Notes under the pieces: model-generated | Database searches by the model: none | The model's input: only the letters and a program-made list of their open reading frames with translations | What the model was told of the DNA's origin: nothing | Shown: piece after piece, positions 5,456-21,303 of the stretch | How positions within the stretch are numbered: the first letter of the stretch is position 1 | Layout: every line of letters starts with the position of its first letter | Program-made: the position numbers and the translations under genes | DNA from: a virus | Length of the DNA stretch: 26,975 nt | Virus record (IMG/VR): IMGVR_UViG_3300028364_000125 | Span: 1 to 26,975 of that record | Direction: 5' to 3' (one strand)

Positions 5456-5494
5456 ACACTACCTCCTCTTCTTTTAATTTACACTTTTTCTTTT

Positions 5495-5567
5495 TAGCGT
5501 GAACTGGATTTGAACCAGTAACCTGATGCTCCCAAAGCACCCGCGCTACCATTTGCGCCATCACGCT
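5495..5567 (-). tRNA. tRNA-Pro (anticodon UGG)
   Basis: All arms fold on the minus strand: acceptor AGCGTGA/TCACGCT (7 bp), D stem GCGC/GCGC, anticodon stem GGTGC/GCATC (one G-U pair) with loop TTTGGGA giving anticodon TGG, variable loop AGGTT, and T arm ACTGG/CCAGT around TTCAAAT. The discriminator is A and no CCA is encoded. It would read CCA and, by wobble, other proline codons. It lies between the purine permease and small genes, downstream of a consensus promoter inside the permease gene. Confidence 0.93.
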
Positions 5568-5571
5568 ATTA

Positions 5572-5639
5572 GCTGTACAAGCGTATTACTCGTACAGCAG
5601 GGAGAGGCGGTACCGTGGCATCACCACGGCTTTATCCGC
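5572..5639 (-). ncRNA. Two stable hairpins between permease and tRNA-Pro
   Basis: Two perfect stems occur: GCTGTAC/GTACAGC (5572-5578 with 5592-5598, 13-base loop), and CCGTGG/CCACGG (5613-5618 with 5624-5629, 5-base loop), the latter enclosed by GCGG/CCGC (5607-5610 with 5636-5639). The segment has no open frame and does not fold as a tRNA. It could mark transcript processing upstream of the tRNA or be a leader-like RNA. The RNA-gene label is tentative. Confidence 0.35.
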
Positions 5640-5645
5640 GTCACC

Positions 5646-6935
5646 TTAAATTACAAGCCAAACTGCGAAGACAACCGCCAAGATAATCACCGTCTTGGAC
5701 AGCTCCTTCCTACGATTCGTCATAGCCTTCAGCACTACATACGAAACTACTCCGAAGAGTATACCATTGCTAATCGAATATGTCAAGGGCATCATGATAA
5801 TTGTCAGGAAAGCTGGGATTGCCTCGGTGTAATCCGTAAGATCAATCTCCGTAATTCCCGTCACCATAAAGAGACCAACCACAACAAGAGCCGAAGCAGT
5901 CGCCGCCGCAGGAACCATCAAAAATAGAGGTGACAGGAAAATCGACACCAAGAATAACACACCAACGGTCAGGGATGTCAGCCCAGTTTTTCCTCCCTCA
6001 GCAATCCCTGAAGAACTTTCCACATAACTCGTTACCGTGCTCGTACCGAGAACAGCACCTACGGTCGTCCCAATGCTGTCTGCAAGAAGAGCTTGTTTCG
6101 CTTTTGGAATTGAGCCATCCTCATTTATCAGCCCCCCTTTGGTAGTAACTCCAATCAGGGTCCCCGCCGTATCAAAAATATCCACAAACAAGAATGTGGC
6201 AACGACCACAATCATATCTGCACTTAAGATGCGAGAGAAATCAAACCGGGCGAAGGTTGGCATAATCGACGGAGGCATCCAAGAAACATTCGTAGGAAAC
6301 ACTGTGTTCCCCGTGAACAGTCCGAGGATAGCTGTAATCATAATGCCCAAAAGAAGGGCACCCTTCATCTTCATAGCGAGGAGAGTCCCTGTGATGAAGA
6401 TACCAGCGAAAGCCAACAGAACACCGGAGCTTGTCATATCCCCCATTGAAATGATAGTGGCAGGATTTGATACAACAATCCCTGCGTTCTGCAAACCAAT
6501 GAAGGCAATAAACAGCCCAATCCCCACAGAAATCGCTCGCTTAATGTTGAGAGGAATAGCATTGATGATCCTTTCCCGTACATCGAAAATAGACAATACA
6601 AGAAAGATGACTCCTTCAATGAATACAGCAGCCAGCGCCATCTCCCATGAAAAACCCATACCAATTACCACGGTGTAGGCGAAGAAAGCGTTGAGTCCCA
6701 TTCCGGGAGCCAAAGCAATCGGAAGATTGGCTACCAAAGCCATTACAAATGTGGCTATAGCAGAAGAGATAGCAGTAGCCATAAAAACAGCTCCCATATC
6801 CATTCCTGCATCTCCCAAAATGAGAGGGTTTACGATCAAAATGTAGGCCATTGTCAAGAAGGTTGTGGCTCCTGCCAACAACTCTGTCTTGATACTTGAC
6901 CCATGCTCTTTCAGTTGAAATACTTTTTCTATCAT
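5646..6935 (-). CDS. AzgA/PbuG-type purine (adenine/guanine/hypoxanthine) permease, NCS2 superfamily
   Basis: About 429 aa, the usual length of AzgA/PbuG/PbuO transporters (roughly 430-450). It starts MIEKVFQLKEHGSSIKTELLAG, followed by TTFLTMAYILIVNPLIL, the characteristic first-helix region, then GMGLNAFFAYTVV, FVDIFDTAGTLIGV and SIGTTVGAVLGTSTVTSYVESSSGIAEGGKTGLTS, all hallmark segments. About twelve to fourteen hydrophobic helices run throughout, with no break. It would import purine bases by proton symport across the host inner membrane. The second of two tandem ATGs (6935) is chosen because AAAGGAG lies five bases before it; 6938 is the alternative. Such transporters are ordinary bacterial genes and rarely seen in phage. 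Its place amid replication genes suggests a captured metabolic gene. Specificity for a particular purine is not known. Confidence 0.93.
   Translation of the reverse strand: MIEKVFQLKEHGSSIKTELLAGATTFLTMAYILIVNPLILGDAGMDMGAVFMATAISSAIATFVMALVANLPIALAPGMGLNAFFAYTVVIGMGFSWEMALAAVFIEGVIFLVLSIFDVRERIINAIPLNIKRAISVGIGLFIAFIGLQNAGIVVSNPATIISMGDMTSSGVLLAFAGIFITGTLLAMKMKGALLLGIMITAILGLFTGNTVFPTNVSWMPPSIMPTFARFDFSRILSADMIVVVATFLFVDIFDTAGTLIGVTTKGGLINEDGSIPKAKQALLADSIGTTVGAVLGTSTVTSYVESSSGIAEGGKTGLTSLTVGVLFLVSIFLSPLFLMVPAAATASALVVVGLFMVTGITEIDLTDYTEAIPAFLTIIMMPLTYSISNGILFGVVSYVVLKAMTNRRKELSKTVIILAVVFAVWLVI
5758..5786 (-). promoter_or_regulatory. Consensus sigma70-type promoter inside permease 3' end, upstream of tRNA-Pro
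   Basis: TTGACA (5786-5781), 17-bp spacer, TATACT (5763-5758). Transcription would begin near 5750 and run through the tRNA and the small-gene/SSB/RecA module. Confidence 0.55.
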
Positions 6936-6937
6936 CA

Positions 6938-7174
6938 TTACTCCTTTGTACTCTCTGCTACGGCGGTGAATTCTTCTCCATTCTTTCCCGCTTCCCAAGC
7001 CCGTTTCATCAATGGTACGATGCTGAAGGCGAAACCAAGATCTCGGCTTAGCGTACAGTCTTCTGGTTCAGGCATGCCTACTGCTATCTCCACTTCACCG
7101 TCCACTTCAATTTCATAGCCATCTCGATCTTCCCCATAATACTCTCCCTCGTTATACCGCGTTACTACTTTCAT
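6938..7174 (-). CDS. Hypothetical acidic protein (78 aa)
   Basis: Not recognised. The first half is a run of alternating charged and aromatic residues (MKVVTRYNEGEYYGEDRDGYEIEV...), perhaps beta strands; the second half is helical. GGAGG lies four bases before the ATG. The start overlaps the 72-aa gene (ATGA) and the stop shares a base with the first ATG of the permease. It therefore sits in the same transcript as the transporter, but no functional link can be seen. Confidence 0.6.
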   Translation of the reverse strand: MKVVTRYNEGEYYGEDRDGYEIEVDGEVEIAVGMPEPEDCTLSRDLGFAFSIVPLMKRAWEAGKNGEEFTAVAESTKE

Positions 7175-7389
7175 CCATCCTCCTCCAAAAGGCTCTTCAA
7201 TTCTTGTCGGACACTATCCCACGGTCCAACCCCGCCCCAATACTTCTTAATCCTCCCCAGGCTATCAATAGCCTCATCAGCAGTTGCTTCTTCAATAAAT
7301 ATCATATCCAGGTGGTTTTTTGCATATGCAATAATCTCATCGTCATCAAAAGAATCCAACTCTACATCAAACTCTATTGTATTTCCCAC
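7171..7389 (-). CDS. Hypothetical acidic protein (72 aa), GTG start
   Basis: Acidic small protein (FDVELDSFDDDEIIAYAKNH, then a helix ending VRQELKSLLEEDG). No known motif. The start is GTG, with AGGAG about ten bases and AGGA about four bases upstream, overlapping the end of the preceding 57-aa membrane gene. The stop overlaps the next start as ATGA. Function unknown. Confidence 0.6.
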   Translation of the reverse strand: MGNTIEFDVELDSFDDDEIIAYAKNHLDMIFIEEATADEAIDSLGRIKKYWGGVGPWDSVRQELKSLLEEDG

Positions 7390-7393
7390 TATC

Positions 7394-7567
7394 CTATCTC
7401 CTCAATAAAAATTCTAAATATATTGGATATACCATACAAAAGATAAACGGAGAGTAGATTAGCAAGGGTCTGAAAAGACCAAGCCTACTCCCTACCTTAA
7501 TTTGTATATCTATGAAAAGCATTCCCAATACTCCCACTGTGAACATAACATCAGTCATCCGATCCAT
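7394..7567 (-). CDS. Small membrane protein (57 aa), paralogue of the gene at 26090-26263
   Basis: A 57-aa frame beginning MDRMTDVMFTVGVLGMLFID, with two hydrophobic segments (about 6-20 and 35-50) separated by a short polar loop and ending LEFLLRR. It aligns without gaps with the equally long protein at 26090-26263 on the other strand: 31 of 57 positions are identical by my count, including SPFIFCM versus LPFIFCM and YLEFLLRR versus YLEYLLRR. That conservation, plus a GAGGAGG site about five bases before the ATG, shows it is a real gene. It would lie in the inner membrane with two helices. No family is recognised, and a holin-like role is conceivable but unsupported. Confidence 0.75.
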   Translation of the reverse strand: MDRMTDVMFTVGVLGMLFIDIQIKVGSRLGLFRPLLIYSPFIFCMVYPIYLEFLLRR

Positions 7568-7576
7568 CTTCCCTCC

Positions 7577-8113
7577 TCAATCCCACAAACCAAAATAGTA
7601 TTCTGCGAACAAATCAATCCCCTCTTGGACTTTCGCAAAATAATGTGCGTACCTTTCTTGATCGAAGGTATGTGTATGATTAGGCCCTTTCTGAAGATAC
7701 CCCTTTTCGTCCACATAAAAGTCAATCTCTCCTGAATGAAAACCCTCATCCATATCCTCTAAAGATGCTTGTTCAAACGACCATATCATGTCTGTCATGA
7801 TATCATTCCACGCTTTCTCTCCCCCTCCCCTATGTTTCCCTGACATAAGAGCTTTGTCGTATTCTTCTCTACTCTCCCATTCATTAGGAGTGTATTCGGA
7901 AAACACAGAAGGGTAACCATGCCCTGTCTCTTTCAGTTGGACCAATAAGTCCCGAATTAGAGGACTGAGTGTGTATGCAATATCCCATGTGTCCCATCTG
8001 TCCAGATGTATTTGGGGGCTTTTTGTATACCACGGATCACGGAACAGGAGCTTATTGATCCAGCATCGTGGATCTCCTCTGCCAGTAATCGGACGATACG
8101 TCTTTATTCTCAT
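7577..8113 (-). CDS. Conserved-looking phage protein of unknown function (178 aa)
   Basis: 178 aa and rich in W, Y and H. Features such as RWDTWDIAYTLSPLIRDLLVQLKE near residue 40 and KAWNDIMTDMIWSFEQAS near 100 resemble a widespread tailed-phage family of unknown function in which a W..D...A..I...L block precedes a W..IL..M..AF block. No catalytic motif can be named. The start overlaps the phosphoesterase stop as ATGA with AAGGAG upstream. The stop lies inside the ribosome site of the 57-aa membrane gene. Confidence 0.7.
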   Translation of the reverse strand: MRIKTYRPITGRGDPRCWINKLLFRDPWYTKSPQIHLDRWDTWDIAYTLSPLIRDLLVQLKETGHGYPSVFSEYTPNEWESREEYDKALMSGKHRGGGEKAWNDIMTDMIWSFEQASLEDMDEGFHSGEIDFYVDEKGYLQKGPNHTHTFDQERYAHYFAKVQEGIDLFAEYYFGLWD

Positions 8114-8664
8114 AGTCTCTCCTTCATCCTACCAATGTGTTCCAACAATACTCCCCACTCAACGGGGGTATAGTCCCAGTGCTCCACACAGATATTGACA
8201 TACCGTGGATCTTGTAGCACATTCTGGTGGATATGCCCATGCACATTGAAGACACTCTTTTTCCTGAAGTGGTGTTCTCCCAGAAAGATAGGTCTGTGCG
8301 TCATCAGGATCATATCCTTATCTTTGGTCTTTAGATGATGCTCTCCTCGCACATCCTTGAAGTAATCTGCATACACAGACAATTTCGCATTGTCGTGGTT
8401 CCCTTTGATCAAAATCTTGACTCCGTTCAACCTTGGCATGATTTGGTCAAATGATCTTCGAGCTGTGCTCATAATAATGTCTCCCAAGTGATACACTTTA
8501 TCATTGGGACCTACAACGCTGTTCCATTTCTCAATCATGCATTCGTGCATAGCCTCCAAGTCGTCTTCTGGTAAAGTCGGACGGATACGCTCACCATCAT
8601 CACCAGTAAACTTCAAGATGTTCCAGTGGAAGAAATGGTGGTCGGATGTTAGAAACATTTTCAT
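8110..8664 (-). CDS. Calcineurin-like metallophosphoesterase
   Basis: 184 aa from ATG 8664. The full metallophosphoesterase signature is present in order: TSDHHF (DxH), YHLGDI (GD), IKGNHDN (GNHD), LMTHRP and VHGHIH (GHxH). Enzymes of this small single-domain type hydrolyse phosphodiesters or phosphomonoesters with two metal ions, and phage versions are common near nucleotide-metabolism genes. The substrate is unknown. The ATG at 8664 is preferred because it forms an ATGA overlap with the 45-aa gene upstream; a GTG at 8688 would extend the protein by eight residues into that gene. Neighbours are MazG-like and clamp-loader genes. Confidence 0.88.
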   Translation of the reverse strand: MKMFLTSDHHFFHWNILKFTGDDGERIRPTLPEDDLEAMHECMIEKWNSVVGPNDKVYHLGDIIMSTARRSFDQIMPRLNGVKILIKGNHDNAKLSVYADYFKDVRGEHHLKTKDKDMILMTHRPIFLGEHHFRKKSVFNVHGHIHQNVLQDPRYVNICVEHWDYTPVEWGVLLEHIGRMKERL

Positions 8665-8798
8665 AGGAGACTCACGGACTTCTGCCACACACGGATATGC
8701 TCAACTAATTCCTTCTTCGACAAAACACCTAAGTGGTATTCAGTAAATACCACTTTGAGTTGTTCGTAGGTTAGCTTATCGGTCGTTTCCACTGCCAT
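8661..8798 (-). CDS. Small hypothetical protein (45 aa)
   Basis: A 45-aa frame (MAVETTDKLTYEQLKVVFTE...) with two apparent amphipathic helices. AGAGGGG lies about eight bases before the ATG. It overlaps the MazG-like gene by 23 bases at its 5' end and shares ATGA with the phosphoesterase at its 3' end, which explains the start of that gene. Not recognised, and shortness keeps confidence moderate. Confidence 0.5.
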   Translation of the reverse strand: MAVETTDKLTYEQLKVVFTEYHLGVLSKKELVEHIRVWQKSVSLL

Positions 8799-11608: not shown

Positions 11609-14600
11609 GCCACTATTTCAAACTCTTCTGATGCCTCAGAAACAGCCCAGTTGTCTCGGTAAATTTCTCCGCTCATTCTCAGGGGCATGGTAATCCATTG
11701 ATGCCGCTCCTTCACTTCAACAATAAAACATTCGCGTACCAAGGCTTTGATAATTTCAATCTCTTCCTCTGGTACTTCCAATACCACGCTGTCATGTATT
11801 TCAGCGATGAACTTACTCTTCAGTCCTTGCTTCTCCATCTTCTCTGTCATAGAAATAATTCCCTCCAAAAGCACATGAAACCCACTCCCCTGAATAGGGA
11901 AGTTTCCTACTTGGTTGGCGGTCATTAACGAGGTGTACATGAATCCAGTGTACGAGATAACCCGTCCTGTGTTCACATACGTTTCCCATGTATCCTCCCG
12001 CCACCGACTCAGTTCCTTGAATCGCTCATTCCAGTAGATACCATAGATCTCCCGAATATGTTTGTCCCATGCTTCGTAGTCCTTCACCCCCACTCTTACC
12101 ATCTCATCTTTGAGACGGTTTGTCATGTGTCCGTGCCACAGATTGTATGACAGCATCCTCGCACTTGAACCATATTGGAGCGCAAAGTTTGCAGTCTTTC
12201 CAACTGAGCGCATGTTTTTGAATAAGGTCGGATCTACGTCTTCTGCCCTTACCCGGAAGATATCCTGAGCCATGTCCGCGTGCATATCGGTATTCTCATC
12301 CAGAAGATACTTCATCATGGTGGGGTCTTTGTGGTAGTTACACCCCATGAACCCCTCAAGTGAAATATAGTCAATGTCCATATAGACACAACCTTTTCTT
12401 GGTTTGAAAACGGATCGAATACGGGACATCATCTCTTCATCTCGCATAGGTGTGTTCTGGAGGTTGGGGTTTTGGCCGCTTGAGCGGTAACTTGTAACCA
12501 AATTCAGAGAGTAACCTGGGTGGATAACATTATCGACTGTCTCTCTCCGTATCCCCTCTAAGAAAGTATCTCGGGTCTTGACCGCCGCTTTGTAATCAGC
12601 AACATTCCGAGCGATCTCGGTCTCATACACTTCGTAGAACCCCCGCAATACTTCCGAGGTAGTACTGGGTTGTCCGTTTTTCGTCCTTTCAATGACAGGA
12701 TACTCAAGCCGATCATAAAAGAGTTCTATCAAATCCTTTGAGCTATTTGGATTGAACGTATCCCACTTCTTAATCAATGGGTCTTGCATGATTTTCTCTT
12801 CCAAGCCCATGATTTGTTTTTCCAACTCAAGAGAATTCTTTTGGAGACGGAACGCATCTACCTCAAAGCCATTGATAGACATCTTCGCTAAAGCAATCTG
12901 ACCTTGGTGGAATTTATCATATCCCTGCTTGAGGATATCGCTGCTCTCAATCTCCTTGATCTGTTTCTCAGCTATGTGAAATGTATGCCATGCATCTTCA
13001 CCGTTGTATTTTAACAAACGAGGCAAGCTCGCGTTACGGATATTGTTTATTGCATTTGCATTTTTCTTGTCAGAAGCAGTTAGGAATCGGTCGATCTCAG
13101 TGTCATACCCCGCTACTCCATTTTGAGCGAACGCCTGAAACTTCAAACTTGTAATCCCCGCACGATTGTCGAGAATGTGCGCTGCGATCATCCCATCCCA
13201 TTTCCAGTTATCCACCCACACTCCGAGGAAATGTTTGATCCACGTGATCTCGTACTGAATGTTCCACCCGTATTTGTCTGCATCGTTCAAGAGAAGTCTC
13301 TTGAGTACCCGTAAGCTACGTTCCTCTCTTGGATGACGAAATGCCCATATCTGTTCCCCATCAGAAAAGCCCCATGTGTATATCTCGTGTCCCTCTGCAT
13401 AGGGTTTCAGTCCGGTCGTCTCAATATCGAACGCATACTTTGGCTTATCATTCAGATACTTCAATGCGTCTCGGATCTCTTCTTCTGAATCCAACAATTG
13501 AACAGAAGGTACTTTCATTTCTGTGTATTTGAATTTCAGCCCAGCCACGATCTGCTTTAGAATGAAAAAATCCAAGACACGGAAACTATCCGTCTGTCGT
13601 AAATAATCATCTTTCCACAGTTCTCGTTTGAAACGGGCATGACTCTTGTATTTAAGGATATTCTTCTTGCGGCGCTCCAATTCTTTCAGAGCATCCATAG
13701 GACTGAAAACAGGAATAACAGCGGCTCGAAGATTCTGGTCCGGAATCAGTGATCCAGGAAATTTGGTATACTGAGCAAAACTAAAACGTCCACTATTAAC
13801 CCCGTGGTAGAGAGTCTTCATAGCCACCGAGCCCATTACAAATATCTTCTCGGGTTTCAAACGAGTGATATTCGCCATAAGCCGGGAGTGACACCCAGCA
13901 ATAGATTGAGGCGATACAGGTGTATCTTTCCCCTCAAATTGTGGCTGAAAACATTGCACCGCGTGAGTCACCCATACATCTTCCTCCGAAAGCCCTACAC
14001 GATCCAAAATGGAGAAGAAGTAGTTATACATTGAGCCATGAAAAGCATCACCTGTATGATCCTCCGCACGAGTAACAGAGTCAAAGATAATGAGGATCTT
14101 TCTCCTGCCCTTGCCCCTCACAGTGAACTTTGGAGACTTGCATAGTTCGTATGCTTTACAAGTCTCACACCCACTAAGTCTGTTTGGACGGGATAATGTA
14201 GGTAAAGGTGCTTTTTCTATTTCCATGAATCCGGGCATTCTATTCTCCTCTTTGGTCTTTTTTTTTACAACATCATCATCCCGTAAGGAATTGATAATCA
14301 TAAGGCTGATAGAGCCCACAAACAGGAACCATACAATTACCTGTACTCTTCGTTTGCTTGTCCACGCTTCCGTAATAGCTATAAAAACTGTATCGGCACT
14401 TCTTCCGCTTTGTGCCTGACGCATCTCCTGAGTAACTTCCCCTCTGTTTATCTGTTGCAGTCTGTTTGCAAGGTTCTCATTAAGAACACGAAGATCCTCT
14501 TCGATGAGAGCTTGTTCTCGCTGTATGGCTTGCACCGTCTCAGGACGTACGGATATCTCAAACTCTGCTCGCTTCGCAATAAGACTATCCTGTAAGGCTT

Positions 14601-14958
14601 CCCGCTGAATGTACAGCTCTTGTAGAACTACATCATTGTCTACAGTAACTACTATATCATAGTTTTCAACTTGTGCCAAGGTACTGGATAGAAGAAAGGA
14701 CCAACCAAAGAACAATGTGACTGCTTCAAGCATGACATAATTTATCAGGTATCGAGGCTTCTTCGTACCCACAAATTTAGAGAAAGCTCTGGGAGCAAAC
14801 ATGACGATAGCTATCCCCGACATCACAAATCCAACCGCTTCTAACGGACCGGGACTCAATCTCAGCATAGACACAACCATAACCCCCGTCTGTACAACGA
14901 GGGCCATTCCCAAACCGAAGGAGTCTAAGAATTGATTGAATCTATCACGAAAACTCAT
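11605..14958 (-). CDS. Membrane domain + UDG-like domain + family A DNA polymerase, one open frame
   Basis: 1117 aa. Residues 15-33, 40-57, 73-92 and 206-224 are hydrophobic helices, with a coiled coil at about 105-170. Residues 260-420 resemble family 4-type uracil-DNA glycosylase with putative Fe-S cysteines C264, C267, C336 and C356. Residues 505-665 are the 3'-5' exonuclease (DIETTGL at 511; Exo II has E, NIQYE; YNGED at 651). Residues 680-1117 are the polymerase: motif A DIDYISLEG near 861, motif B RSVGKTANFALQYG at 917-930, motif C HDS at 1055. UDG-PolA fusions are known in phages; a membrane anchor is not usual. An internal ATG at 14238 (M241) with AGAGGAG upstream would give an 877-aa soluble enzyme, and it is the better ribosome site. 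The first ATG overlaps the clamp stop (ATGA). Three products are possible. Confidence 0.9.
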   Translation of the reverse strand: MSFRDRFNQFLDSFGLGMALVVQTGVMVVSMLRLSPGPLEAVGFVMSGIAIVMFAPRAFSKFVGTKKPRYLINYVMLEAVTLFFGWSFLLSSTLAQVENYDIVVTVDNDVVLQELYIQREALQDSLIAKRAEFEISVRPETVQAIQREQALIEEDLRVLNENLANRLQQINRGEVTQEMRQAQSGRSADTVFIAITEAWTSKRRVQVIVWFLFVGSISLMIINSLRDDDVVKKKTKEENRMPGFMEIEKAPLPTLSRPNRLSGCETCKAYELCKSPKFTVRGKGRRKILIIFDSVTRAEDHTGDAFHGSMYNYFFSILDRVGLSEEDVWVTHAVQCFQPQFEGKDTPVSPQSIAGCHSRLMANITRLKPEKIFVMGSVAMKTLYHGVNSGRFSFAQYTKFPGSLIPDQNLRAAVIPVFSPMDALKELERRKKNILKYKSHARFKRELWKDDYLRQTDSFRVLDFFILKQIVAGLKFKYTEMKVPSVQLLDSEEEIRDALKYLNDKPKYAFDIETTGLKPYAEGHEIYTWGFSDGEQIWAFRHPREERSLRVLKRLLLNDADKYGWNIQYEITWIKHFLGVWVDNWKWDGMIAAHILDNRAGITSLKFQAFAQNGVAGYDTEIDRFLTASDKKNANAINNIRNASLPRLLKYNGEDAWHTFHIAEKQIKEIESSDILKQGYDKFHQGQIALAKMSINGFEVDAFRLQKNSLELEKQIMGLEEKIMQDPLIKKWDTFNPNSSKDLIELFYDRLEYPVIERTKNGQPSTTSEVLRGFYEVYETEIARNVADYKAAVKTRDTFLEGIRRETVDNVIHPGYSLNLVTSYRSSGQNPNLQNTPMRDEEMMSRIRSVFKPRKGCVYMDIDYISLEGFMGCNYHKDPTMMKYLLDENTDMHADMAQDIFRVRAEDVDPTLFKNMRSVGKTANFALQYGSSARMLSYNLWHGHMTNRLKDEMVRVGVKDYEAWDKHIREIYGIYWNERFKELSRWREDTWETYVNTGRVISYTGFMYTSLMTANQVGNFPIQGSGFHVLLEGIISMTEKMEKQGLKSKFIAEIHDSVVLEVPEEEIEIIKALVRECFIVEVKERHQWITMPLRMSGEIYRDNWAVSEASEEFEIVA
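14236..14268 (-). promoter_or_regulatory. A_AAA_AAG slippery site, -1 frame TAG, and strong internal start of UDG-polymerase
   Basis: On the minus strand GTA is followed by A9 then G; in frame this contains A_AAA_AAG (14263-14257), the same heptamer used in E. coli dnaX frameshifting. After a -1 shift the frame reads GAC CAA AGA GGA GAA TAG, stopping at 14242-14240. One base later is ATG (14238-14236), with AGAGGAG six bases before it. A shift would give a 239-aa membrane protein. Confidence 0.6.
14240..14958 (-). other. Possible separate membrane protein (239 aa by -1 frameshift)
   Basis: This is the alternative product of the region. The first 234 codons of the polymerase frame, followed by five codons in the -1 frame (DQRGE), would end at TAG 14242-14240. 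The protein would have three N-terminal membrane helices, a coiled coil of about 65 residues and a fourth helix near 206-224. If the A9 run is a sequencing error for A10, this is simply a separate gene. No family is recognised. Confidence 0.45.
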
Positions 14959-15983
14959 ACTTCAACCCATAGATACAAACATTCGTTTTCACTTTCACTT
15001 TCACAGACGAGAAAGTCATTGGTCCCGAAACGTACTTCTCCTTCCATCTCTACGAGACTGATAAGGTGATCTGGATGTATTCGGAACGCGAGGTTCGAGC
15101 TTGAATAAACTCCCTTGAGTTTATGTGTATACTTGGACTTGACCCCTTCCGTGCTTATCACCGCTTCTCCGTCTTCGATACTCACATGTACGGTAACGTC
15201 CTTTTTCTTAAACTCAATGTCGAATGCTTTGGAAGCCAATAGTGCCTGTTTCCACTCAGAAGGATTTTCGATTCTAAAAGATTCTGTAGCGGTAGATGTA
15301 TTTGGAATGTAACGGCTAACTGCTGACACATTCCCAATGTTCCGGACCATGCTCAGAACTGAATCTCCAATACGGAAAGACACAGTGGAGTCCTTAATCA
15401 ATATCAAATCTGGTTCCCCGACACTCCCGAGTACCTTCTCGATCCCAAGACTAAATGAAGCATCCGGACAATCAACAAAGCGGGTAGCGATTTTGTACCC
15501 GTCGGAAGACATCGCCATATTATCTTGTACATAGATGTTGCTGTACTCGATGTTCATGGGAAATGTGGATTTAGAGCAGAAGTCTATAGCATCCCGGAAA
15601 TATGAAGGAAGAGAAGTGTAGTTTTCTATAGGTGCCGTCTCTACATAGAAGGACTGCATATAGTCAGAAATAGACTTGAAAGGGTAATTGAAATCTGCTT
15701 GGTTCCCTTGACATTCTATGGTCACACTGTCTATACCGATCAGTATAGAGACGGTATCTTCGTGCAACCGAGATAGCATTGCCTTTACAGGGACTACTGG
15801 CAGGGCCATCTCCTTCGGGGCATCGAAGGGCTGTAGGAAGAAGAACAGTCCGTTAAAAGCATACACATAATTCCCGTCGAAGAAGATCCAATCTTCGTAT
15901 GGGACATTCACTTTCTTTGAGACTATTGGTTTCACTCTCTCGATGAAGCTCAGAAGTTCTTTTCTATCTATCACATTTTCCAT
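14955..15983 (-). CDS. DNA polymerase sliding clamp, DnaN-like
   Basis: 342 aa, near the usual 360-380 aa of bacterial beta clamps. The sequence has the three-repeat beta-rich character of DnaN: a first domain with VYAFNGLFFFLQPFDAP and LPVVPVKAMLSRLHEDTVSILIG, a central domain with IYVQDNMAMSSDGYKIATRFV (the SSDGYKIA motif being a good DnaN marker) and a third domain ending in FLVCESESENECLYLWVEV. It would encircle DNA as a dimer and tether the polymerase encoded next, whose start it overlaps by ATGA. GAGGAG lies seven bases before the ATG. The clamp loader is encoded further along the same strand. Confidence 0.85.
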   Translation of the reverse strand: MENVIDRKELLSFIERVKPIVSKKVNVPYEDWIFFDGNYVYAFNGLFFFLQPFDAPKEMALPVVPVKAMLSRLHEDTVSILIGIDSVTIECQGNQADFNYPFKSISDYMQSFYVETAPIENYTSLPSYFRDAIDFCSKSTFPMNIEYSNIYVQDNMAMSSDGYKIATRFVDCPDASFSLGIEKVLGSVGEPDLILIKDSTVSFRIGDSVLSMVRNIGNVSAVSRYIPNTSTATESFRIENPSEWKQALLASKAFDIEFKKKDVTVHVSIEDGEAVISTEGVKSKYTHKLKGVYSSSNLAFRIHPDHLISLVEMEGEVRFGTNDFLVCESESENECLYLWVEV

Positions 15984-15995
15984 ACTATTGCTCCT

Positions 15996-17489
15996 CTAAC
16001 CGTTGAATCCCCATTCTTTGGATGGTTTCTCTTGTTCTTCAGTCTTCATCCCTTCAGACACAATTTGTTGCTGTGCTGCAATGACCTCTTCATAATTCGG
16101 GATATCTTTGACCCACCGAGCATCTAAGATGGGTCGCGCTAAAGCCAAGGATTGAAGACAAGCCACTTTGTTTGATTGGTAAAACTCATCATGTCTCCCG
16201 AGAACAAAAAGCCGCATGATACCGGCTCGCTTTTCTGCTTCAGTCTGCAATATACTAACCCAGTGAGAAGCGAAGTCAAATTTCCGACTGCTCCCACTGG
16301 CCTCTTGAGGACCAACCTCGTACTTGGCTCCCGTCTTGTTATATTGTGATCCGAGGATCACCAGAGAGTGCCTTTGTTGGGCAATCTTCGCTTTCACGTC
16401 CTTCCAAATCTGATCTAAGGAATCGTGTGTAGCTCCATGAAAACTGCCCTCGTTCTCTAACAGTTTATCGTAATCAATCACAACTACATCAATCTTTACT
16501 TCTTCGTATTTTTCCAAACGATCTAAAGCATCCGCAATGTCCGATACCTTTCTTCCGACATCATCGTGGTCAAAGAAGAACAAACGTCCAACGCCGCCAT
16601 ACTTCTTGAATGAGTCTTGAAAGGAGGCAGTTTCGTGCAGATCCAATCCGGAACGGGTTGTGTGCTCATACTGAATCAAACCACTATCGTCGAAGAAGGG
16701 GACAATAACATCCTCGCTCTCTCGTCGCGTCTGCCCCATAAAGTTTTGAAAGAGCCGCATACCCATAACGCTGTGATCCATTTCATATGAGAAGATTGCA
16801 ACATTTAGGTTGTTGTACAGAGCATAGTATCCAAACTGATACATGAGAAAGCTCTTCCCTCGCTTTGCTGGTCCCGCTACAGCCAAGATATCTCCACGAT
16901 ACACATCTTGGAATAGCTGTTCCAGGGCGGGGTAGGGGAACTCAATAATACCCTTCTTCATTCCTGCAAACATCTGTTGAATGAACGCTGGATCATTGAA
17001 AGGCTCTATGCCTGTAGAGACTACCGTATCGACTTTATTGTAGTCTACCAGTAATCGCTTTGCTTGCTCGACATTACCAGTGGAAATACTCCCCTTAATC
17101 TCTTCTGCCAATTGAAGAAGAGACTGTTCTTCAATATACTTCTTTGCTTTCGCAATGTAGTACTGATCAGAGAATGTTTCTGGATTCTCCATGTATCTCT
17201 CGTTGATGTGGTGCAACAGATTGTAGACCGTAGTAGCGGTCTCTTCATCCATCTCCCTTTTCCGAGATACATAAATGTCGTTTATCAACTTCCCCGGTGC
17301 TTTCTGGAATTCCTTGTAATGATTCAAACACCACGTAACCAACCTTCTGATCGAAGGTTCTCGGATGAGATGGGTATTACGGAGTACCTTATAGGTTTGC
17401 TCAATAAACGTAGTACTGACTATTGCCCCAGTGAGAATATCTTTCTCTGGTTCATTCTCCACTTGAGACCGGCTATACTTTGCTGCCAT
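15996..17489 (-). CDS. Replicative DNA helicase, DnaB-like
   Basis: 497 aa. An N-terminal helical domain (about 1-150) is followed by a RecA-fold ATPase: PYPALEQLFQDVYRGDILAVAGPAKRGKS with Walker A GPAKRGKS near 203-210, IFSYEMDHSVMGMRLF (the DnaB H1a region), Walker B VVVIDYDKLL, and LVILGSQYNKT (H3, polar Q). It would unwind the fork as a hexamer on the lagging strand and interact with the primase. AAGGAT precedes the ATG, which begins one base after the SNF2 stop. No DnaC-like loader is recognised, so the initiator or another small protein may load it. Confidence 0.9.
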   Translation of the reverse strand: MAAKYSRSQVENEPEKDILTGAIVSTTFIEQTYKVLRNTHLIREPSIRRLVTWCLNHYKEFQKAPGKLINDIYVSRKREMDEETATTVYNLLHHINERYMENPETFSDQYYIAKAKKYIEEQSLLQLAEEIKGSISTGNVEQAKRLLVDYNKVDTVVSTGIEPFNDPAFIQQMFAGMKKGIIEFPYPALEQLFQDVYRGDILAVAGPAKRGKSFLMYQFGYYALYNNLNVAIFSYEMDHSVMGMRLFQNFMGQTRRESEDVIVPFFDDSGLIQYEHTTRSGLDLHETASFQDSFKKYGGVGRLFFFDHDDVGRKVSDIADALDRLEKYEEVKIDVVVIDYDKLLENEGSFHGATHDSLDQIWKDVKAKIAQQRHSLVILGSQYNKTGAKYEVGPQEASGSSRKFDFASHWVSILQTEAEKRAGIMRLFVLGRHDEFYQSNKVACLQSLALARPILDARWVKDIPNYEEVIAAQQQIVSEGMKTEEQEKPSKEWGFNG

Positions 17490-19211: not shown

Positions 19212-19802
19212 CTAATACGCCCCAAGTTTTGCGTAGCGCTGAACGTCTACTACATGTAAAGTAGGAGCCGTTCGCTTTCTTCGCTCAAAAACAAACCATC
19301 CAGTTACCAAGGCTCCTACATGGAAGCTCCCATCTTCTCGATAAGGTGTCCTATAGTCAACCATTCTATCAAAGATATAGACTCGTGTCAAGTGATCCCA
19401 CAGCCCTTCTACGTTCCGCTTATGTGTACCGAAATAATTGACACGCCCGATTGTAATCACTTTCGGAGCAATCTCTAGGCTCTTCCAGACCATTTGATCC
19501 CATTCACTAAAGGGAAAGTTCGTCACCACCACATCGTAGCTGTCTTGTTCATAGCTATAGATATCACGATTGTCTTTTCCCACAAAAAGATCACTCCCAT
19601 GAACTTGAGAAAACCCTTCTTCTATCAGGGTGTCCACAATAGCCCGTTCTCCTTGACAGGGATCAACAATTGAATCTGTTTTCGCTATTTCTCCTTGCTT
19701 GATAAGTTCCCATGTAAGTGATTTTGGAGTCTCGTAGAAATCTCCTTGTGGTCTTAATTCCAGAGGCTTCTTGGAAGCGTATGCCTTACCTTTATTATTC
19801 AT
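19212..19802 (-). CDS. DNA adenine methyltransferase-like protein
   Basis: 196 aa. A Rossmann-type methyltransferase layout is visible: FYETPKSLTWELI at the start (as in phage N6-adenine methyltransferases), motif I-like SIVDPCQGERAIVDTLIEEGF near 45-65, and motif IV-like YDVVVTNFPFSEWDQM near 89-104. The usual catalytic tetrapeptide is (D/N)PP(Y/F), whereas here it reads NFPF, with the first proline replaced. It may still be active, or it may be a relic or a protein using the fold for another purpose. GGAAGG lies four bases before the ATG, which overlaps the transglycosylase stop (ATGA). Methylating phage DNA against host restriction is the usual role. Confidence 0.65.
   Translation of the reverse strand: MNNKGKAYASKKPLELRPQGDFYETPKSLTWELIKQGEIAKTDSIVDPCQGERAIVDTLIEEGFSQVHGSDLFVGKDNRDIYSYEQDSYDVVVTNFPFSEWDQMVWKSLEIAPKVITIGRVNYFGTHKRNVEGLWDHLTRVYIFDRMVDYRTPYREDGSFHVGALVTGWFVFERRKRTAPTLHVVDVQRYAKLGAY
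19363..19391 (-). promoter_or_regulatory. Consensus promoter inside methyltransferase gene, upstream of SNF2
   Basis: TTGACA (19391-19386), 17-bp spacer, TAGAAT (19368-19363). One mismatch to consensus in the whole element. It would feed the SNF2 and DnaB genes. Confidence 0.5.
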
Positions 19803-20359
19803 ACATCCTTCCCTATAGACCGCTGAACTTTCCCGAGATAGATACTCCCTTGGCGATTTTTTCTATTATGGCGTATCGCAGAAAGCCCAACATTATAGGC
19901 CATTACTGCCTGTTCAATGTTATCGGTCTGTAAATAGAGAAAATTCAGGTGTGCCGCCGCGATCTGAATAGAGGCTTCTGGGTCAAACGGGTCTACCTTT
20001 CGCCCAAGATACTTCATAGAAAAGTATTCAATATAGGCACTATTCAGTTGGGCAATCCCCATATCCTGAGTGCCGTTACTGTTTTCAGGACTGATTGCGC
20101 GTGGATTCCAATTACTTTCAACAGAAATAACCCCAATAAGGTATGAAAAGTCATAATCATAAGGAAAGGACACGAACAGATGTCTGAACTCACGAGGAAT
20201 CCTCAACAGTTCGCGGCGTTCTGCATTTACGATCCCTCGCAGTTCCGTATACTCCTCTATGTGTGAAGCGTGTACGGGTGATGGCTCTGGCAGAACCTCT
20301 TCCCACCTCGCGCTTCCACAAAGACCCACAATGACTCCTAAAATCAATAATGCTTTCAT
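19799..20359 (-). CDS. Secreted lytic transglycosylase (SLT fold)
   Basis: About 186 aa. It opens with a signal peptide (MKALLILGVIVGLCGSA); the cysteine after VGL makes a loose lipobox possible. The domain from about residue 75 has the SLT pattern: LIGVISVESNWNPRAIS with the catalytic E, GTQDMGIAQLN, AAAHLNFLYL and VMAYNVGLSAI. It would cleave peptidoglycan in the periplasm. It lies between the recombinase and the methyltransferase rather than in a lysis cassette, so a role in lysis, cell entry or envelope passage is open. The ATG at 20359 is preferred: GGAGG is six bases upstream, while the ATG at 20365 touches the ribosome site. Confidence 0.88.
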   Translation of the reverse strand: MKALLILGVIVGLCGSARWEEVLPEPSPVHASHIEEYTELRGIVNAERRELLRIPREFRHLFVSFPYDYDFSYLIGVISVESNWNPRAISPENSNGTQDMGIAQLNSAYIEYFSMKYLGRKVDPFDPEASIQIAAAHLNFLYLQTDNIEQAVMAYNVGLSAIRHNRKNRQGSIYLGKVQRSIGKDV

Positions 20360-20361
20360 TT

Positions 20362-21303
20362 TCATCCTCCAATCATGCCGATAGAATCCAGATAGCGTTG
20401 AGTAATAGCTACATTTGTGTGGTTTAGTCGTTTTGATACTACATAAATGTCGGAAGTCTGGCTATAGACCTTGACTGCAAAATAGTGGCGAAAACTGTGA
20501 GCATGATACTTTTGCTCAATGACTCCCTCTGTAAACAGTTCTTCGCACACTTTGGTAACGTGATGCTGAATCGTCCTCTCGTTCATATCCTTAAAGGGAA
20601 GAGCAACACTCGCGTCAAAACCCATATCAGACATCACCTCTTTATACCCTTCAGGCATAATCCCCTGGATGGTTCTGCCTTTCGAGTAGGTGGTATAGAT
20701 GTCATCTTTTATAGACAACCCCTTCAGAGCACCAACACGAAACCCTCCGTAGGCCATGAGCCACACAGCCATGTATACTTTTTTATACGCAGTGGAATGA
20801 GGAGAGGATATTTTATCGCTTAAACGAGACAGGACCCTATAAAGATCCTGTTCATTCGGGACAGCTAATGACTTGACTCGTTTAGATTTAACGGTTTTCA
20901 CTCCTCGAAAAGGATTGGTAGGGATGACTTCCCAACGCACCATTGTGGTAAAAAAAGAGGAAATAGCAGTCAAGTGTGTACGTACACTGTTGGGAGCGTA
21001 CACCTTGGAAAGCTCACTGACGTAAGTATCCGCATCGAACGGAGTCACATCGATTGGATGAATATGCTTCTGAAAGAACAACTTTATTGCCGCCTCATAA
21101 CTCTCTCGGGTCTTGGCGCAGAACGAATCAAGAAATTGAGACAGATAGGAATCAATATCAACCGACTCTTTCTTCTGAATCTTTGTCACCAGAGATTTGA
21201 TTCTATCATACTCAATATGGGCCTTAATGTGGTCCATCTGGGCTTCTGTAAGCTGAGTCCCGTCAGGTAATGTATGTACGTTGTACGTAAGGTCATTCAT
21301 CAT
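20362..21303 (-). CDS. Tyrosine recombinase (integrase/XerC-D-like)
   Basis: 313 aa. The N-terminal SAM-like core-binding domain (about 50-145: YLSQFLDSFCAKTRESYEAAIK... HLTAISSFFTTMVRWEVIPTNPF) precedes the catalytic domain with the full R-HxxR-H-Y set: YGGFRVGALKGL, YHAHSFRHYFAVKV, LNHTNVAITQRYLDS. It would recombine DNA through a covalent 3'-phosphotyrosine. No excisionase or repressor is recognised beside it and no attachment site can be picked out, so it might serve integration, multimer resolution or genome-end processing. It is the first gene after a strong promoter with a palindromic spacer. AAGGGG lies before tandem ATGs (21303, 21300). Confidence 0.92.
   Translation of the reverse strand: MMNDLTYNVHTLPDGTQLTEAQMDHIKAHIEYDRIKSLVTKIQKKESVDIDSYLSQFLDSFCAKTRESYEAAIKLFFQKHIHPIDVTPFDADTYVSELSKVYAPNSVRTHLTAISSFFTTMVRWEVIPTNPFRGVKTVKSKRVKSLAVPNEQDLYRVLSRLSDKISSPHSTAYKKVYMAVWLMAYGGFRVGALKGLSIKDDIYTTYSKGRTIQGIMPEGYKEVMSDMGFDASVALPFKDMNERTIQHHVTKVCEELFTEGVIEQKYHAHSFRHYFAVKVYSQTSDIYVVSKRLNHTNVAITQRYLDSIGMIGG

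Follow-up and report, generated by a model that had tools for sequence, protein, structure and literature searches.

An in-frame fusion of a membrane protein with a phage UDG-exonuclease-PolA polymerase, carrying a conserved A9 run and an internal polymerase start, is a candidate for RNA-polymerase slippage

Organization of the replication locus

The window (the whole stretch of viral DNA analysed, 26,975 nucleotides) carries on its minus strand a replication operon in which a putative membrane protein and a DNA polymerase occupy a single open reading frame. The relatives used for comparison at this locus are a population variant (L110, IMGVR_UViG_3300012031_001089), a diverged relative on a 36.7-kb record (L011) and a relative on a 98.6-kb record (L026) whose polymerase stands alone. 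The features of the locus are given in the order in which they would be transcribed.

15996..17489, minus strand: DnaB-like replicative helicase, same operon
14955..15983, minus strand: divergent sliding clamp (processivity factor; phrog_947, 5.6e-6), whose homologue directly precedes the polymerase in L026
11605..14958, minus strand: fused ORF of 1117 aa, membrane protein plus UDG-exonuclease-PolA polymerase in one frame without a stop
14239..14958, minus strand: membrane portion, aa 1-240; its start ATG overlaps the clamp stop (ATGA); 62% identical in L011
14863..14919, minus strand: hydrophobic segment 1, aa 14-32 (hydropathy)
14782..14838, minus strand: hydrophobic segment 2, aa 41-59 (hydropathy), followed by a K/R-rich loop (60-70)
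14692..14748, minus strand: hydrophobic segment 3, aa 71-89 (hydropathy)
14443..14658, minus strand: predicted coiled coil or helical hairpin, about aa 101-172 (sequence and model), putatively extracytoplasmic
14284..14340, minus strand: hydrophobic segment 4, aa 207-225 (hydropathy), C-terminal side putatively cytoplasmic
14258..14266, minus strand: A9 run (T9 on the plus strand), codons GT-A AAA AAA AA-G, the same in L002/L110 and L011
14257..14263, minus strand: A_AAA_AAG heptamer, in frame
14245..14251, minus strand: AGAGGAG Shine-Dalgarno (SD) sequence of the internal start, 5 nt past the heptamer and 6 nt ahead of the ATG
14240..14242, minus strand: TAG in the -1 frame, giving a 239-aa product; absent from L011
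14236..14238, minus strand: internal ATG, the ancestral polymerase start (M-x-GF), which aligns with the MTGFLDIPK start of L026 and MSGFF of L038
11605..14238, minus strand: UDG-exo-PolA polymerase, 877 aa (Pfam domain matches)

On the minus strand the junction between the two halves reads GAT GTT GTA AAA AAA AAG ACC AAA GAG GAG AAT AGA ATG CCC. A preliminary description of this DNA had proposed that the polymerase frame stays open upstream into four membrane helices and a coiled coil, and that an A9-G run at the junction holds a dnaX-type heptamer in the correct frame. Both observations were borne out: the 1117-aa ORF runs from 14958 to 11605 without a stop and includes four hydrophobic segments, and the heptamer (14263-14257) overlaps the A9 run (14266-14258) in frame. 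Among the A/T runs of the window this one is the longest, and no other reaches 8; the AGAGGAG element resembles the SD sites of other window genes. With a tenth A or a -1 shift the upstream product would end after 239 aa at the TAG one base before the ATG, and with one A fewer it would end after 246 aa.

The clamp gene diverges faster than the helicase gene beside it: the clamp, which adjoins the insertion, is 49% and 31% identical to its homologues in G001 and L026, respectively, compared with 73% and 58% for the helicase. Elsewhere in the window, positions 5494-8688 hold a tRNA-Pro(TGG), a transporter of the Xan_ur_permease family (5646-6998, Pfam 1e-48) and, at 8110-8688, a weak match to a metallophosphatase. 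None of the tested proteins of this segment has a homologue in G001 or L026, whereas the flanking replication genes do, and the segment is either a recent cargo insertion or an assembly join. Positions 19799-21303 encode a lytic transglycosylase (SLT) and a tyrosine integrase on the strand and in the series of the replication genes, with homologues in G001.

The polymerase and its UDG-like domain

Pfam matches to UDG (7e-11), 3'-5' exonuclease (1e-8) and DNA_pol_A (1e-51) place the domains of the 877-aa polymerase in the order typical of phage UDG-PolA enzymes. The residues D271, E273, D348, D415, D623, E628, R677, K681, Y689, H815 and D816, which are catalytic residues of PolA (motifs A, B and C) and of the exonuclease, are invariant in the polymerase alignment.

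The UDG-like domain (13669-14169) is family-4-like, with scores below the NCBIfam cut-offs. Five cysteines (C24, C27, C33, C96 and C116), candidates for binding an Fe-S cluster, are invariant across three close relatives, while the UDG GE(G/A)PG motif and the terminal HP motif are missing, with FDSVTRAED and FSP standing in their places. Judged by these motifs, the domain is probably non-catalytic; with its five cysteines kept, it may serve structurally or bind uracil.

Phage UDG-PolA polymerases (phrog_17; those of Lysinibacillus phage LysYB1 and of SPO1-like Bacillus phages) share the N-terminal UDG-like domain, the 3'-5' exonuclease and PolA, are 20-28% identical to the window enzyme, and none has an N-terminal extension with multiple transmembrane (TM) segments. 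Likewise, neither a multi-TM extension nor a multi-TM gene just upstream was found at any of 71 other phage polymerase loci with complete N-termini.

The membrane portion

The AlphaFold model of the membrane part is all-helical and of low confidence overall (pLDDT 57); a hairpin of helices spanning about 110-165 scores better, with pLDDT 74-86 for residues from about 111 to 160. Because of the distribution of charges, namely the K/R-rich loop at 60-70 and the linker after TM4, we infer that both termini of the membrane part are cytoplasmic and that the coiled coil lies outside; the fused polymerase would thus be on the cytoplasmic side. No homologue of the membrane part was found in Pfam, PHROGs, NCBIfam, PDB, phage records or plasmid records, and a scan of IMG/VR returned just L011 and a near-identical contig.

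Comparison with L011 indicates that the membrane half evolves as coding sequence in the same frame, since identities at codon positions 1, 2 and 3 over TM1-3 were 0.69, 0.82 and 0.40, respectively. TM4 is 86% identical in amino acid sequence between the two, and in L011 the start of the membrane gene overlaps the clamp stop by the same 4 bases (GTGA).

Conservation and history of the fused frame

The population variant L110 differs from the window by 10 SNPs and no indels over 10.7 kb and also carries A9. Seven of the 10 SNPs (window 12568-14578) fall in the fused polymerase gene, and five of these seven change an amino acid. In L011 the whole 1117 aa align as one ORF, with 65% identity over 1121 columns. 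The L011 junction reads GTA AAA AAA AAG AAC GGA GAG GAG ATA GGA ATG, so that the spacing from heptamer to SD (5 nt) and from SD to ATG (6 nt) is identical to that of the window. Synonymous sites between window and L011 are saturated (41% identical at conserved residues; 23/43 for Lys codons), and a few codons before the A run the two differ by an indel of 4 whole codons, across which the fused frame stays open.

The preliminary description had offered a missing A in the homopolymer, making two ordinary genes look fused, as a trivial explanation, and had held that relatives in which the two genes are separate and the A run is missing would point the same way. With a tenth A, the upstream frame of the window would indeed close at a TAG one base ahead of the ATG, as is common in operons. 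We nevertheless consider a sequencing or assembly artefact the least credible of the explanations weighed here, scarcely worth entertaining: A9 is present in three records, the population variant among them, and L011 with ten As would run to 268 aa with no TAG before the ATG, so that only an error in the other direction (A8) would make it end there. Furthermore, L011, alone among the diverged relatives in having the membrane gene, shows not two genes but the fused frame with an identical A9G, SD and ATG arrangement.

The remaining relatives bear on the history of the locus. Among IMG/VR matches to polymerase queries, L026 was the sole intermediate relative, the others being many and distant, and the genome contigs scanned contained a distant polymerase only. 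The L026 polymerase is 55-57% identical, in the gene order helicase, clamp, polymerase; its junction is clamp-TAG-TA-ATG-polymerase with no membrane gene between, and a profile search of the entire L026 record found no membrane gene. Because the stand-alone L026 polymerase starts at the homologous ATG, the internal ATG of the window is well supported, on alignment, as the old polymerase start. Probably, then, the membrane gene was added ahead of a stand-alone polymerase whose own start and SD were kept; loss of the membrane gene in L026 would explain the distribution less simply.

It could also be argued that the fused reading is incidental, with the internal start supplying nearly all polymerase and rare, functionless read-through giving the long product. 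The internal SD is strong, the start is ancestral, and the membrane start may be merely coupled to the clamp by the ATGA overlap. The membrane gene could, however, easily have gained a terminal stop in the 0 frame, which neither lineage has, and the fused frame spans the 4-codon indel; we regard this account as very improbable. Taken together, the comparisons give strong sequence support for the fusion and the internal start.

Selection on the A9 run

In both the window (27 kb) and L011 (36.7 kb), A9 is the only A/T run of at least 8. In the coding sequences of the window, G001 and L026, A/T runs of at least 7 occur 3-4 times less often than after synonymous shuffling; apart from A9, runs of at least 7 in the two records numbered 2 against 10.5 expected and 1 against 7.5 expected (Poisson p 0.002 and 0.005, respectively). 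This depletion of A/T homopolymers of at least 7 suggests that slippage carries a cost in the hosts of these phages.

A second explanation accepts the fusion and internal start as real and gives A9 no recoding role: the run would encode a cytoplasmic Lys cluster beside TM4, with codons alike by chance and descent. Three lysines after the last TM segment suit the positive-inside rule, and with KKK conserved and synonymous sites saturated, the chance that AAA-AAA-AAG stays unchanged is about 11%. The distances to off-frame stops are ordinary as well. On the other side stand the uniqueness of A9 in both records against the depletion of such runs, and the linker, whose third positions are unusually conserved between window and L011 (9/13 identical versus 0.40 elsewhere, p about 0.03). 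We consider this explanation a serious one, possible though not the one we favour.

Both other frames stop in both genomes, giving products of 239/246 aa in the window and 268/242 aa in L011. The preliminary description had drawn attention to the -1 TAG one base before an ATG served by AGAGGAG. This geometry is present in the window; as a designed feature we rejected it, since it is not conserved in L011, where the -1 stop lies 30 codons on (farther than at 93% of positions), and since a -1 stop at least as near as that of the window is found at 32% of codon positions in the gene. Overall, the sequence evidence for selection on the A9 run is moderate, and functional slippage, as judged from two independent lineages, is plausible.

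Proposed expression of the fused gene

Our preferred reading, to which we assign a probability of about 0.5, is that a membrane gene has become fused in frame to the polymerase, that both tethered and soluble polymerase are made, and that RNA-polymerase slippage on A9 frees the membrane protein. A gene for a four-TM coiled-coil protein would have been inserted between clamp and polymerase of the replication operon and then become continuous with the latter in frame. Ribosomes entering at the membrane ORF would produce the 1117-aa membrane-tethered polymerase, with the enzyme on the cytoplasmic side, and those that use the polymerase's own ATG, retained together with AGAGGAG, would produce the 877-aa soluble enzyme. 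The conserved A9 would cause slippage of RNA polymerase and, to a lesser degree, of the ribosome. Where a transcript carries neither 9 nor 9+3n As, ribosomes from upstream would enter frames that stop within about 30 codons; the membrane protein, about 240-268 aa long, would then be released on its own, and the internal polymerase start would be untouched.

Slippage of the kind known from Thermus dnaX, combined with internal initiation, is the best mechanistic fit. In T. thermophilus dnaX, about 50% short product arises at A9 by RNA-polymerase slippage, and both non-zero frames contain stops (PMC1088944, PMC5009743); a 9A run whose length is kept across homologues has been considered very likely to reflect purposeful slippage (PMC1088944). 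The window likewise has nine As in the coding sense strand, a run length conserved in two independent lineages, and full length in frame 0 with stops near in both other frames, at distances no shorter than chance. In Yersinia tssM3 the full-length protein is the default and 15-25% poly-A slippage yields a truncated form (PMC4256274). For E. coli RNA polymerase in one reporter study, slippage on poly(A) was weaker than on poly(T), needed at least 8 As, and gave only about 5% rescue at the lengths tested (PMC6260861), which counts against high efficiency.

The preliminary description had instead favoured a -1 ribosomal frameshift of the E. coli dnaX type at A_AAA_AAG as the main event; in a variant of this idea, a 30S subunit at the internal SD acts as a roadblock. 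The heptamer is in the right frame in both lineages, the gap to the conserved SD is exactly 5 nt, and ribosomes do slide on A runs, with robust truncation at A11 and a truncated product already at three AAA codons (PMC4363877). The expected stimulators are missing, however: the window has no stem-loop 5-10 nt downstream (the 63-nt downstream fold has z = +1.0), and neither the window nor L011 has an SD-like element about 10 nt upstream. The L011 downstream fold (z = -2.3) starts about 16 nt past the heptamer, and its hairpin, which does not correspond to the window fold, overlaps the start-codon region. With the non-conserved -1 stop added, a ribosomal shift as the main event appears improbable, and A9 points rather to slippage by RNA polymerase.

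A more specific form of the preferred reading, which we put forward tentatively and as somewhat doubtful, is a three-product gene in which A9 slippage fixes the ratio of free membrane protein to tethered polymerase and the internal start adds soluble polymerase, so that a controlled fraction of the replisomes would be membrane-anchored. By acting as a roadblock, initiation at this start, 5 nt farther on, could possibly aid slippage. If true, a polymerase fused to a multi-TM protein with an internal start and a slippery run would offer a direct genetic handle (one A run, three products) and would add a phage polymerase to the genes with dnaX-like slippage. In both of the diverged groups of uncultured phages, a single gene could yield the polymerase in free and in membrane-tethered form as well as the membrane protein on its own.

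Comparison with known systems

To our knowledge, few phages are known to replicate in association with the membrane, and in these the association depends on separate proteins. The elements found at this locus are known, and no description of their arrangement, or of a membrane-fused phage PolA, was found in open-access papers. Compared by description, p16.7 of phi29 is similarly a viral membrane protein that organises membrane-associated DNA replication (PMC11476376); it is a separate protein, however, and phi29 has a family B polymerase and no fusion. The PolA polyprotein of Aquificae virus 3173 likewise has an extra replication domain fused to PolA that is a separate ORF in some relatives (PMC7689252), but its partner is a DUF927 helicase-like domain and not a membrane protein.

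With respect to the run itself, E. coli dnaX has the same A_AAA_AAG heptamer in the same frame, whereas the window lacks the stimulatory SD and stem-loop and its -1 stop is not conserved. In Yersinia tssM3 and Citrobacter tssM1, poly-A slippage also produces two lengths of an inner-membrane protein (PMC4256274); these systems differ in having neither an enzyme fusion nor an internal start, and the run in C. rodentium tssM1 has 11 As. T. thermophilus dnaX shares with the window a sense-strand A9 in a replication gene, full length in frame 0, and off-frame stops that give a shorter N-terminal product (PMC1088944, PMC5009743). Its short product is a clamp-loader subunit, whereas that of the window would be a membrane protein, and the window run sits between membrane protein and polymerase, beside an internal start that would rescue the downstream product.
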